47,676 nt of DNA from Candidatus Velthaea versatilis (GTDB lineage Bacteria > Vulcanimicrobiota > Vulcanimicrobiia > Vulcanimicrobiales > Vulcanimicrobiaceae), in the NCBI GenBank assembly GCA_003134035.1, contig PLAE01000229.1, positions 1 through 47,676 of the forward strand. The letters are read 5' to 3'. The position numbers and the translations under genes were made by a program. Below are positions 1,631-6,281 of the stretch, in pieces. The notes beneath the pieces are model-generated. The model did not search any database, was not told the origin of the DNA, and saw nothing but the letters and a program-made list of their open reading frames with translations. The stretch's first letter is position 1, and each line of letters opens with the position of its first letter.

Positions 1631-1639
1631 GTTAACTGG

Positions 1640-1894
1640 ATGGAACGAATCATCACGCAACGCGAACTACGCAATGATAACGCCGAAATCATTCGTGCAC
1701 TCGAAAGTGGCGACTCCTTTATCATTACCCGCAATGGCGTGCCTGTGGGGCGCCTAACTCCTGTTGCCAGACGAACGTTCATCCCGACTTCTGAACTCAA
1801 GAAATCCGCCGCCCATTTGCCTCGAATCGATTACAAGAAGTTCCGCGATGACATCGATGCGTTCATCGACCAAGACCCTGCCCCGCGTGTCTAA
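1640..1894 (+). CDS. Phd/YefM-type antitoxin (VapB-like)
   Basis: An 84-residue antitoxin. The N-terminal half matches the Phd/YefM fold: MERIITQRELRNDNAEIIRA, then ESGDSFIITRNGVPVGRLTPV, which supplies DNA binding and dimerisation. The C-terminal half (about residues 50-84, rich in Lys, Asp and Phe) is the usual disordered toxin-binding tail. It would bind and neutralise the PIN-domain nuclease encoded next and repress the shared promoter through the palindromes immediately upstream. The ATG at 1640 follows those palindromes closely. Its last codons overlap the GTG of the toxin gene by 8 nt, as expected for a translationally coupled pair. Confidence 0.88.
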   Translation: MERIITQRELRNDNAEIIRALESGDSFIITRNGVPVGRLTPVARRTFIPTSELKKSAAHLPRIDYKKFRDDIDAFIDQDPAPRV

Positions 1895-3091: not shown

Positions 3092-3317
3092 AGTGAACAT
3101 ACTCATCCGCAACGTACCGGCACACGTTCTAGACGCGCTGCGCTCACGAGCTCGCGAGCGCGGTCGATCTGTCCAAGCCGAAGCACTCGATGCACTGCAA
3201 GCGGGACTGAAGCCTATGGGCCGTTCCCTGGTGGAATGGCTGCACACCGTTGCCGACCCCGACATCGACGTCAAAGCGGGCTTGAAAGCGATCCGCGAAC
3301 AACGCGACGAGCGGTGA
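3081..3317 (+). CDS. FitA/VapB-like ribbon-helix-helix antitoxin
   Basis: A 78-residue antitoxin. The N-terminal ribbon-helix-helix is clear: NILIRNVPAHVLDALRSRAR, then RGRSVQAEALDALQAGL, closely resembling FitA-type antitoxins. The remaining tail (residues about 45-78) would wrap the PIN toxin. It should repress its own operon at the inverted repeat that covers its start. Two starts are possible: ATG 3081 lies inside that repeat, while GTG 3093 begins directly at the first beta strand (VNILIRNVP); I kept the ATG. The TGA overlaps the toxin GTG in a GTGA arrangement. Confidence 0.85.
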   Translation: MLSSVNILIRNVPAHVLDALRSRARERGRSVQAEALDALQAGLKPMGRSLVEWLHTVADPDIDVKAGLKAIREQRDER

Positions 3318-3686
3318 AGATCATCATCGATGCAAGCGCTGCCTTTATCATGCTTGCGGATCCCGCACGGGTTGCGGAGATTTTCGCCGACGCGGCCGAC
3401 GTCCTCGCGCCGGAACTCATCGTAGCGGAGCTGCTCAACGCGCGTTGGAAAATGGCACGCGCGGGAGCAGCGGCGCCATCCCTCAACGTCGTTCTCGGTC
3501 TGTTCGGCCGCATTCACCTTGTCGCGACCGTTTCGTACGCGGCGGACGCCGCGGCGCTTGCGCAACGTCTCGATCATCCGGTCTACGACTGTCTGTATGC
3601 GGTGCTCGCGAAACGCGAGAATGCACGATTAGCCACGGCGGATCGGCGCTTCGCGGCGAAATTCGTTGACGAGACGGTTGACGTCG

Positions 3687-3697
<11 letters not shown>
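3314..3697 (+). CDS. vapC: VapC-type PIN-domain ribonuclease toxin
   Basis: A 127-residue PIN-domain toxin paired with the ribbon-helix-helix antitoxin. Four acidic active-site positions are visible: Asp6 (IIIDASA), Glu39 ([11 protein letters not shown]), Asp92 ([12 protein letters not shown]) and Asp110 (LATADRRF). The GTG at 3314 shares four bases with the antitoxin stop, so translation is probably coupled. This pair belongs to a different subfamily from the one at 1640-2291 (ribbon-helix-helix instead of Phd antitoxin), so the two should not cross-neutralise. Its 3' end meets the end of a dead ABC-transporter gene on the other strand. Confidence 0.9.
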
Positions 3698-4197
<500 letters not shown>

Positions 4198-4212
4198 TCG
4201 ATCACCGCGCAG

Positions 4213-4794
4213 TCATGAAGCGCGACGTCGGCTGCGTAGAGCGGCGACCTTTTTGCGGTTGCCGCATCCCGCCATGCGGCACCAGCGCCGCGTGCCGTTC
4301 TTACTCGCGTCGTAAAAGTAGTGGGTGCAGGCCTCGTTCGCGCAGCGCCGGATCGCTTGTCTGTCCTTGCGCGTAAAGAGTTCGCGCGCTGCTTCGGCAA
4401 CGAAGTAGAGCAAGGCCTCCGGAACGTCCGTCGCCACCCGCCGCACGCTCGCAACGCCGCCGGCGAGCGCAACGAGTTCGTCGTGTATCGGCGCGTGCTG
4501 CAAGTGCGCGTTGATGACGGCGAGGTCGTCCGCCACGGGCGCGCGTCCGGCGACGTATGCCTCGACCATGCGCCGCAGCGCCGAGCGGAATGCGTGAACG
4601 CGAGCGATGGTCCGTTCCCGCTCGGGCTCTGTCGCACGCGCGAGGGCGGCGTGTGCTTCGTCCGCGGTCAGCATCCCGACCGCCTCGAGCCAGCCGACGA
4701 AGGCGATAACGTCCGGGACCGTATCGCCGCCCGCGAACGCCGTATTCACGAAGTCCAGCGCGCGATCGTTTGCGACGAACAGGTACCGGCTCAT
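4213..4794 (-). CDS. CGNR zinc-finger (ABATE-domain) putative regulator
   Basis: A 193-residue protein. Residues 1-135 form the ABATE-type domain (YLFVANDRALDFVNTAF at the start is typical). Residues 148-185 form the CGNR zinc finger, with Cys151, Cys156, Cys172 and Cys177 and the eponymous Cys-Gly-Asn-Arg at 177-180, followed by a basic tail. Such proteins are regarded as stress-linked or putative transcription regulators. The start is ATG 4794; an upstream ATG at 4827 would run into the palindrome. The gene is divergent from the VOC/flavin-oxidoreductase operon with a long inverted repeat between them, so it probably controls that operon and itself. Confidence 0.87.
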   Translation of the reverse strand: MSRYLFVANDRALDFVNTAFAGGDTVPDVIAFVGWLEAVGMLTADEAHAALARATEPERERTIARVHAFRSALRRMVEAYVAGRAPVADDLAVINAHLQHAPIHDELVALAGGVASVRRVATDVPEALLYFVAEAARELFTRKDRQAIRRCANEACTHYFYDASKNGTRRWCRMAGCGNRKKVAALRSRRRAS

Positions 4795-4810
4795 GTAACC
4801 CCCATAAACC

Positions 4811-4850
4811 CTATTGACAGGATACATTTGGCGTTGTATACCGTCAATAG
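4811..4850. promoter_or_regulatory. Long near-perfect palindrome between the CGNR regulator and the VOC operon
   Basis: The 16-bp arms at 4811-4826 (CTATTGACAGGATACA) and 4835-4850 (TGTATACCGTCAATAG) match as an inverted repeat at 14 of 16 positions, around an 8-nt centre. The site is 16 bp upstream of the CGNR start (4794) and 43 bp upstream of the VOC ATG (4894). The left arm holds TTGACA and the right arm resembles a -10 box (TGTATA), so promoter elements may be embedded. It is the obvious candidate operator for the CGNR protein. Confidence 0.7.
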
Positions 4851-4893
4851 TTGCTCAAACCAGTTACATCACGTCCACCAGCGAAAGGCTCAT

Positions 4894-5358
4894 ATGCCAA
4901 CGCAAGCACCCGATGTCATCGCAACCACCGGCCACGTCGGCATCAACGTCACCGAAATCGACCGCTCAGTCGCCTTCTATCGTGCGATCCTGGGCCTCGA
5001 CGTCCTCAACCGCAGCGACGAGAACGGCAAACGCTTCGCCTTCCTGGGCGCCCACGGCAAGCTCGTCCTCACCCTGTGGGAACAGGCGACATCGCCGTTC
5101 GGCGTGACCGTCGCCGGTCTCCATCATCTCTCGTTTGTGGTTAGCGACATCGCAGCCGTCCGGTCCGCCGAGCTTCGTGTCCGCGCGGCGGGCGCGAAGC
5201 TCCGTTACGACGGCATCGTGCCTCACCGCGAAGGTGCGAGCTCCGGCGGCATTTTCTTCGAGGACCCCGACGGCACGCGTTTGGAGATTTACGCACCCGC
5301 CGGCGCCAACACGGCACCGGCTCCTAGCGGCACCGCGCCTACCTGCGGCTTCTTCTGA
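4894..5358 (+). CDS. VOC-family (glyoxalase/dioxygenase-fold) protein
   Basis: A 154-residue single-module pair of betaalphabetabetabeta units. The first unit begins GHVGINVTEIDRSVAFYRAI with LGLDVLNR; the second has GLHHLSFVVSDIAAV and ends FFEDPDGTRLEIYAP, the classic metal-site strand with its Glu. Family members include glyoxalase I-like lyases, extradiol dioxygenases and antibiotic-binding proteins; the substrate cannot be told. ATG 4894 is preceded by GAAAGG. It is the first gene of an apparent two-gene operon with the flavin oxidoreductase 2 nt downstream, divergent from a CGNR regulator across a palindrome, suggesting an inducible detoxification unit. The C-terminal 20 residues are an Ala/Pro-rich tail. 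Confidence 0.88.
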   Translation: MPTQAPDVIATTGHVGINVTEIDRSVAFYRAILGLDVLNRSDENGKRFAFLGAHGKLVLTLWEQATSPFGVTVAGLHHLSFVVSDIAAVRSAELRVRAAGAKLRYDGIVPHREGASSGGIFFEDPDGTRLEIYAPAGANTAPAPSGTAPTCGFF

Positions 5359-5360
5359 GC

Positions 5361-6281
5361 GTGAACGCCGAGTCCGCGCGCCACGAAACGTATCACGCGG
5401 GCGAGCTATACGTCCAAGATCGCGCCGGACAGGCGGCTGCGGCGACGGCCGCGCTCGGGGCGATTCACACCGCCATCCCGCCGCCCGCGGCGGCGTTCCT
5501 AGCCGAACGTGAGCTGCTCATCGTCGCGGCGCCCGACGGCGACGGCCGGGTCTGGACGACCCACCTCACGGGCGCGCCTGGTTTCATCCGCGTCGACGGC
5601 GATCGCTCCATGCACGTGGCAGGGCTGCCGCACGCGCGCGATCCGCTCGCCACGAGGCTCGCCGGCCAAACGGTCGTCGGCACGATAGCGATCGATTTCG
5701 CCACGCGTCGACGTATGCGCCTCAACGGCACCAGTCTGGGCAGAACCGGCGGCATCACGATCGTAAGTGATCAGGTCTACGCAAACTGTCCAAAGTTCAT
5801 CGCCGCTCGCTCCGTTGAAGCGATCGCCGACGCATCGACCCCGCATAGCCACGAAGCCGAACGCCTCGACGCAGCGTCGCGCCCACTGATCGCGCAGGCC
5901 GATACGTTCTTCATCGGCACCGCTCACGACGAGGCCGGGGCGGACGCGTCGCATCGCGGCGGTGCCGCGGGTTTCGTTGCGATACTGGACGATCGCACCC
6001 TCCGCTTTCCCGACTATCGCGGAAACGCGATGTACATGACGCTCGGCAACCTCGCCGTCTCGCCGCGAGCGGGGTTGCTCTTCATCGACTGGGAACGCGG
6101 CGATGCGCTGCAAATCACCGGCACCGCGAGGACCGACTGGGACGCAGCGCTCGCCGCTCGTTTCCCGGGGGCGCAACGCATGGTGACTTTTACGATCGAG
6201 CGCATCGTGGTGACCACAAGCGCATCAGCGCTCCGTTGGTCAAAGGCCGTCCCCTCACGCGTCAATCCGCCACTCGAATAG
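5361..6281 (+). CDS. Pyridoxamine 5'-phosphate oxidase-like split-barrel flavoprotein
   Basis: A 306-residue protein with two split-barrel halves. The first contains RELLIVAAPDGDGRVWTTHL and later TVVGTIAIDFATRRRMRLNG; the second contains RTLRFPDYRGNAMYMTLGNL, then PRAGLLFIDWERGDALQITG, the FMN-binding pattern of pyridoxamine-oxidase-family proteins. Members of this long form are FMN-dependent oxidoreductases or reductases, often beside electron-transfer partners; here the partner is a VOC protein 2 nt upstream. The GTG at 5361 is the natural start because the VOC gene stops at 5358. A cysteine occurs at the start of the second half (YANCPKFI), a feature of this subfamily. Substrate unknown. 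Confidence 0.85.
   Translation: MNAESARHETYHAGELYVQDRAGQAAAATAALGAIHTAIPPPAAAFLAERELLIVAAPDGDGRVWTTHLTGAPGFIRVDGDRSMHVAGLPHARDPLATRLAGQTVVGTIAIDFATRRRMRLNGTSLGRTGGITIVSDQVYANCPKFIAARSVEAIADASTPHSHEAERLDAASRPLIAQADTFFIGTAHDEAGADASHRGGAAGFVAILDDRTLRFPDYRGNAMYMTLGNLAVSPRAGLLFIDWERGDALQITGTARTDWDAALAARFPGAQRMVTFTIERIVVTTSASALRWSKAVPSRVNPPLE

Follow-up and report, generated by a model that had tools for sequence, protein, structure and literature searches.

Which DNA does a CGNR-type regulator read, and which genes would it control? This question is raised by a locus of Candidatus Velthaea versatilis, carried on contig PLAE01000229.1 of assembly GCA_003134035.1, of which we analysed positions 1 to 47,676 (hereafter the window). 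There, a gene for a protein with ABATE and zf-CGNR domains (hereafter CGNR) stands back to back with a gene pair encoding a VOC protein and a PPOX-type flavoprotein. A sequence-only reading of the window had proposed that a 40-bp palindrome between the divergent genes is the operator of an inducible detoxification unit, informative on what CGNR/ABATE proteins recognise. We compared this locus with its relatives in other genomes. The reading that we favour, with a probability of about 0.8, is that CGNR is a dimeric autorepressor which acts on paired operators, controls the VOC-PPOX operon and is released by a ligand.

Paired inverted repeats between CGNR and VOC genes

Scanning of genome contigs with the CGNR protein as a single sequence returned 79 stretches and no relative, and an alignment of VOC proteins was used instead; the best 80 of 88 relatives were retained as named loci. 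A CGNR gene is divergent from the VOC side in 55 of these 80, two of them (L057 and L076) with an intervening gene. The divergent loci belong to Actinomycetota, Armatimonadota/Abditibacteriota, Sumerlaeota, Chloroflexota, Acidobacteriota and Bacillota. In 56 gaps shorter than 450 bp, window included, CTAACC...GGTTAG repeats with at least 10 of 12 matches occurred 78 times with an 18-nt spacing (N18) and 13 times with N19, against 0.3 expected in each case. A further peak at N11 (46 cases) arises because two dyads placed 41-42 bp apart necessarily give such a spacing. Two inverted repeats of 30-31 bp, nTAACC-N18/19-GGTTAn, were identified in 52 of the 55 other divergent CGNR:VOC loci; 55 of 57 loci were kept for this count, L082 and L101, whose CGNR protein was not parsed, being dropped. 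In 44 of the 52 loci, the left ends of the two dyads lie 41 or 42 bp apart (the automatic pairing of L048, at 48 bp, looks mispaired). The cluster-weighted half-site, obtained without the window, reads nTAACCnnYnAA. The two arms of the site vary together (0 of 5000 shuffles; p = 0.0045 for position 1), as in CTTACC/GGTAAG and GTAACG/CGTTAC. Upstream of the VOC gene in the actinomycete loci L056, L060, L070, L074 and L117, CTAAYG...CRTTAG-like dyads with N18 or N19 replace CTAACC, and three of these loci have only a distant CGNR gene in the stretch.

The window was then scored with a weight matrix built from the related CGNR:VOC gaps, window excluded. The best two-dyad placement in the gap, which is also the best of the whole window, is a pair of predicted operators O1 and O2 with N19 each and a 42-bp offset (Table 1). 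The pair scores 23.1, which none of 5000 shuffles reached (maximum 11.9), and its half-sites read GTAACC, GTATCC, G/TATAC(C) and GTAACT. When the 40-bp core was held fixed and both flanks were shuffled, none of 5000 shuffles reached the O1+O2 score; it was reached in 23 of 5000 when only the left flank, with the left half of O1, was shuffled, and in 8 of 5000 for the right flank, with the right half of O2. Because flank-only shuffles fail with the core fixed, we consider that the outer half-sites, overlooked in the sequence-only reading, are present.

The palindrome itself is as that reading had described it: its 16-bp arms match at 14 of 16 positions around an 8-nt centre, the divergent gap measures 99 bp (4795-4893), and 2 nt separate the VOC stop (5358) from the start of the PPOX open reading frame (5361). 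A repeat of this quality (16-bp arms, at least 14 of 16 matches, centre of 0-20 nt) arose inside the 99-bp gap in only 1 of 2000 gap shuffles, which speaks for the palindrome as the operator unit, with CTATTGACA as its half-site. Over the whole window, four such repeats were found, while 40 dinucleotide shuffles gave 1.9 on average; the palindrome alone is thus a weak window-wide signal. Its 40-bp pattern, with at most 3 mismatches, occurs at a single place in the genome. Against its being the operator stand two observations from the other loci: besides the window, CTATTGACA was found in only 1 of 55 other divergent gaps shorter than 450 bp (L100), and the orthologous unit is shifted and of opposite polarity, with GGTTA outward. 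We thus regard the palindrome as a most improbable operator unit. The expectation of an operator in this gap, informative on CGNR/ABATE recognition, is upheld by the comparison, but what is conserved is a pair of 31-bp inverted repeats with a 42-bp offset.

Promoter-like elements run across both predicted operators. The pair on the minus strand was returned by a promoter scan (1 found, 0.1 in shuffles), while its plus-strand counterpart was not listed because the rule of the scan demands T as the sixth base of the -10 element.

Table 1. Genes, predicted operators and promoter-like elements of the CGNR:VOC locus in the window
Feature	Position	Strand	Basis or remark
CGNR/ABATE regulator gene, 193 aa	4213-4794	-	ATG at 4794; Pfam ABATE and zf-CGNR
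Predicted operator O1, GTAACC-N19-GGATAC	4795-4825		Best two-dyad match of the matrix built with the window excluded; directly adjoins the CGNR start codon
40-bp palindrome CTATTGACAGGATACA-TTTGGCGT-TGTATACCGTCAATAG	4811-4850		Right half of O1 facing left half of O2, with promoter elements
Putative sigma-70 promoter of VOC-PPOX, TTGACA (4814-4819), 17 nt, TATACC (4837-4842)	4814-4842	+	Read by eye
Putative sigma-70 promoter of the CGNR gene, TTGACG (4847-4842), 17 nt, TATCCT (4824-4819)	4819-4847	-	Promoter scan
Predicted operator O2, TATACC-N19-AGTTAC	4837-4867		Same matrix, weaker than O1; alternative left register GTATAC at 4836-4841
VOC (glyoxalase-fold) protein gene, 154 aa	4894-5358	+	ATG at 4894; Pfam Glyoxalase/VOC
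PPOX-type (PNPOx_N) flavoprotein gene, 306 aa	5361-6281	+	GTG start; PF01243

Association of the site with CGNR genes

For 86 VOC loci, we tabulated the regulator gene and the site, at a site score threshold of 18. A CGNR orthologue occurs together with a site in 57 of them, and 16 have neither. Five have an orthologue and no site that reaches 18 (L057, L076, L106, L131 and the window, at 17.9), four have a site and no CGNR gene in the fetched stretch, and a distant CGNR gene was found three times without a site and once with one. In L057 and L076, the double site lies between CGNR and a divergent DUF1348/SnoaL-like gene (Pfam on L057 only), VOC-PPOX being further downstream. By eye, CTCACC-type dyads were seen to precede CGNR in the Solirubrobacter loci L116 and L122, and GGATAT words were seen in L131; L113 is truncated by a contig end. 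The Kitasatospora-type loci L093, L115 and L118 have the site and a CGNR gene about 4 kb off, as do L075 (17.1) and L132 (17.7), which score slightly under the threshold. The site is lacking at the VOC-PPOX loci of a Pyxidicoccus (L112) and of a myxobacterium (L123), in whose genomes no CGNR gene was found (for L112, among 150 of 353 candidates scored). In the window's order, three genomes carry VOC-PPOX with neither a site nor a CGNR match in the fetched stretch, and L117 and L129 have no site despite CGNR genes in their genomes. A CGNR gene facing an SDR gene (L136) bears the double site, and sites also adjoin CGNR genes facing hydrolase, MFS and EamA genes. The idea that the site is a property of VOC was ruled out, since other CGNR genes bear it; by this comparison, the predicted site follows the CGNR gene and not the VOC gene.

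Two Streptomyces genomes carry double CGNR-type operators before alpha/beta hydrolase genes (L190, 1501-1587; L191, 1501-1592, where a nitroreductase gene adjoins the operator), with no CGNR gene in the 3-kb stretch; these hydrolase genes are possible regulon members in trans. In the gap of a Pantoea CGNR:hydrolase locus (L052, 2785-2961), seemingly three TAAC-type dyads, not two, were seen by eye.

Sites were also searched for at CGNR genes of other contexts. On plasmids of Pseudomonadota, GTAACC/GTAACT dyads were found at 4 of 4 CGNR genes (p ≤ 0.01). Among 12 further plasmid CGNR genes, five have a site at p = 0.003 (L233, L235, L237, L242 and L243), the Deinococcus gene L233 showing CTTACC...GGTAAG twice, 42 bp apart, and L239 and L241 have a perfect GTAACG...CGTTAC at p = 0.02-0.04. 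In the window's phylum, 22 of 31 CGNR genes bear a site at p ≤ 0.01, mostly with N17, and many show a second dyad 30-31 bp away. The more distant paralogues of other genomes do so in 14 of 58 cases; the idea that distant paralogues are without sites did not hold, a CTAACC-only filter having overlooked GTAACY sites. A matrix-free search for exact 6-bp inverted repeats upstream of paralogues gave no clear spacing peak. A prediction set beforehand was put to 40 CGNR genes of the window's phylum that had been held out. At p ≤ 0.01 a site was present at 33 of them, 26 of these with N17; of the 25 with a second dyad, 23 have it 30-31 bp away. The 40 genes are not 40 independent events because many of the genomes are related. 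Loci were taken for 40 of about 72 CGNR places lacking one, and the 40 held-out places are part of all those found; genes fetched twice (L143=L098, L153=L104, L151=L081, L138=L080 and L145=L135) were left out in the recount.

A tree of 66 CGNR proteins separates 28 proteins of the window's phylum from 38 that include the window, VOC-type and plasmid proteins (support 99/93). Sites with N17 and 30-31 bp go with the set of 28, and sites with N18/19 and mostly 41-43 bp with the set of 38. The window geometry (N19, 42 bp) agrees with the place of its protein in the latter set, within which the tree does not settle its exact neighbours. CGNR proteins occur in 62 of 147 genomes of the phylum, and in several copies per genome in the Actinomycetota searched. 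VOC relatives at E ≤ 1e-25 were found in 4 of 149 phylum genomes, own genome included, which fits a horizontal arrival.

Fold and recognition helix of the CGNR protein

Pfam assigns the CGNR protein to ABATE (PF07336, 63.0 bits, cut-off 24.4) and zf-CGNR (PF11706, 62.5 bits, cut-off 24). Its Cys4 zinc site is formed by C151, C156, C172 and C177, all invariant except C172, which is nearly so, and the CGNR motif spans residues 177-180. The AlphaFold2 model shows an ABATE domain and a treble clef, with a mean pLDDT (per-residue confidence) of 90.3 that is lower around residues 171-190. At E ≤ 0.001 this model matches a single structure, 3h0n (Foldseek E 2.5e-6, probability 1.00, TM score 0.56-0.58), which is also the closest PDB relative by sequence. 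This structure is that of Jann_2411, an ABATE and zf-CGNR protein for which dimerisation, a probable ligand cavity and a treble clef likely to bind DNA have been described (PMC2954205). The window protein has the same two-domain fold and Cys4 treble clef, but is 21% identical to it in the fold alignment.

We numbered the finger as CGNRxKxxx(res1)(res2), where res2 lies ten positions past the Cys of CGNR; L186 and R187 are the recognition-helix residues of the window protein. Of 170 fingers, 32 were not parsed, and only the 94 parsed genes scoring at least 17 were used. A half-site with G at base 1 (G1) was found for 25 of the 28 genes with Arg at res2 and for 13 of the 66 with another residue there (Fisher test 2e-10, descent not corrected). 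When proteins are clustered at 45% identity, G is the most common base in 8 of 8 Arg clusters and 1 of 10 others, and at 60% in 19 of 22 and 2 of 19, this clustering joining close relatives. The window, with R187 and the half-sites GTAACC, GTATCC and GTAACT, fits this rule. For base 1, the prediction made for the held-out set was borne out only in part: of 62 half-site positions in Arg genes, 39 are G, 13 A, 7 C and 3 T, and the four positions of the two non-Arg genes are A or C. In three Rhizobiaceae loci facing EamA genes (L235, L239 and L241), the dyads read GTAACG...CGTTAC and Arg replaces Lys two after CGNR, as in L120 (CTAACG). These EamA-type fingers lie outside the parsed rows with a site, and their residues were compared with the half-sites by eye; the residue two after CGNR is a possible base-6 contact. 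We think it rather probable that the CGNR family reads one grammar, nTAACC-N17/18/19-GGTTAn, mostly in pairs three turns (30-31 bp, N17) or four turns (41-43 bp, N18/19) apart. In this grammar, res2 would set base 1 (Arg giving G; Tyr, His and others giving C or a variable base), and base 6 may be specified by the Lys two residues past CGNR, Arg in that position going with G by eye.

The identities given to the genes by the sequence-only reading, a CGNR regulator facing a two-gene VOC and flavoprotein operon, agree with Pfam, and the arrangement recurs in several phyla. The VOC protein scores 58.8 bits for Glyoxalase (cut-off 20.6) and ends in PTCGFF. H14, H77/H78 and E131 are invariant in a 3-row alignment, and from general knowledge of VOC enzymes we take them to be candidate metal ligands. 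Among the 25 matches listed of 28 NCBIfam families (FosA, GloA, catechol dioxygenases, ArsI and others), none passed its curated cut-off. What had been called a flavin oxidoreductase is better described as a PNPOx-type split-barrel protein, predicted to be a flavoprotein, because it matches PNPOx_N at 49.6 bits (cut-off 28.1); it fails TIGR04025 (MSMEG_1061/DR2398 subfamily; 84.7 bits for a curated cut-off of 170). A tblastn search of phage records with the CGNR protein gave no match. Genes of toxin-antitoxin type adjoin the locus: a Phd/YefM-like antitoxin reading frame (1631-1891, plus strand; 28.5 bits, slightly below the cut-off of 29.8) overlaps a PIN-domain frame (1764-2288, plus), and a second PIN-domain frame lies at 3236-3697 (plus). 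Downstream of the CGNR gene (3629-4198, minus), ABC-transporter ATPase motifs split over two frames were seen by eye, in what looks like a broken gene fragment.

Proposed mechanism and its alternatives

From 3h0n and the dyads, we infer that CGNR would bind both DNA and ligand as a dimer. Each dimer would occupy one inverted repeat of about 31 bp with GTAACYnGTCAA-like half-sites, and the C-terminal helices of its two zinc fingers would read half-sites spaced by about 25 bp. On O1 and O2, 42 bp or about four helical turns apart, two dimers would presumably lie on the same face of the DNA and bind cooperatively. Because O1 and O2 share bases with the -35 and -10 elements of both promoters, we propose that bound CGNR shuts off its own gene and the VOC-PPOX operon together. 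A small molecule entering the ABATE domain would release CGNR from the DNA; the VOC enzyme and the PPOX flavoprotein would then be made and transform this molecule. What the comparison of sequences shows is the sites in pairs, with their spacing, their conservation, their linkage to CGNR genes and their overlap with promoter-like elements; that CGNR is the protein which reads them, and that it represses, binds cooperatively and is released by a ligand, is our proposal. The sequence-only interpretation is thus supported in part, inducible detoxification being the portion that we infer.

Several results weigh against this mechanism. O2 is weak in the window (7.5, for 15.6 at O1), and a TTGACN-(16-19)-TANNNT pair spanning the right half of O1 to O2 is present in only 35 of 55 loci. 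A generic sequence-only model of the double site (R1), which is too close to its training set, gave 0 matches to the O1/O2 pair in the window. R1, the only model applied to the organism's own genome, gave one weak partial match there beyond the window; it does recover the double site between CGNR and VOC in many Streptomyces-like genomes. The other two CGNR genes of the same genome (L001 and L003) are not among the site matches. At p ≤ 0.01 the site is absent from 9 of 31 and 7 of 40 genes of the phylum and from 44 of 58 distant paralogues. It is also absent from 5 of the 12 further plasmid genes, of which L234 is divergent from its neighbour and L236, L238, L240 and L244 are not divergent in the table. 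Finally, 13 genes without Arg at res2 have a G1 half-site, in a comparison not fully corrected for descent.

The symmetry of the gap could reflect only two overlapping divergent sigma-70 promoters, without any regulator, as hexamers stand on both strands with equal spacing within the palindrome. However, CTAACC/GTAACC and GGTTAG/GGTTAC are not promoter hexamers, half-sites outside the promoters are supported with the core fixed, the two arms covary, and the words are absent from the two VOC-PPOX loci in whose genomes no CGNR gene was found. A promoter-only origin is very unlikely on these grounds. The dyads might otherwise be read by another regulator travelling with these genes, as suggested by the five Kitasatospora-type loci whose CGNR gene is distant from the site and by the hydrolase genes of the two Streptomyces genomes. 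This we hold to be quite unlikely: the sites adjoin CGNR genes with many neighbour types in nine phyla, including the window's, a residue of the CGNR helix covaries with the half-site, and in all five Kitasatospora-type genomes a CGNR gene and VOC lie about 4 kb apart. CGNR might also bind these sites and activate, or act both ways. In Streptomyces-type loci O1 extends to the -35 and O2 to the -10 element, which is compatible with activation, but the window's O1 and O2 run across the -35 and the -10 of each promoter-like element, the layout of a repressor. We find activation doubtful and retain autorepression by CGNR.

Autorepression by CGNR would resemble that of TetR/LacI-type regulators, which are generally known to stand divergent from a small enzyme operon, with inverted-repeat operators over both promoters and presumed allosteric release. 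CGNR differs in that it would presumably read DNA by a treble-clef zinc-finger helix, not a helix-turn-helix, and in that its predicted sites are two wide dyads (29-32 bp) three or four helical turns apart. The closest likeness in gene content is on the Streptomyces plasmids NZ_CP107767 and NZ_CP043960, where CGNR, VOC and PPOX have the same order and orientation as in the window and the VOC protein is 47% identical to that of the window, including the C-terminal PTCGFF. There, in contrast, ferredoxin and FAD-dependent reductase genes follow PPOX, both of which the window operon lacks, and the half-sites are TAACC-type with N18 and a variable base 1. The double dyad is clear in NZ_CP043960, while the automatic pairing at 48 bp in NZ_CP107767 looks mispaired.

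The passages of PMC2954205 on Jann_2411 name no operator, target or ligand, and the CGNR passages of PMC9976334 and PMC4260502 give gene names only. We found no CGNR operator, ligand or target named in the open-access literature searched; subscription papers lay outside this search, and an operator may be known there. A conserved predicted operator would make CGNR regulons predictable by sequence in this orphan family. It would also define the exact DNA to be used in binding assays and co-crystals, and supply reporters for finding the ligands of the ABATE fold.
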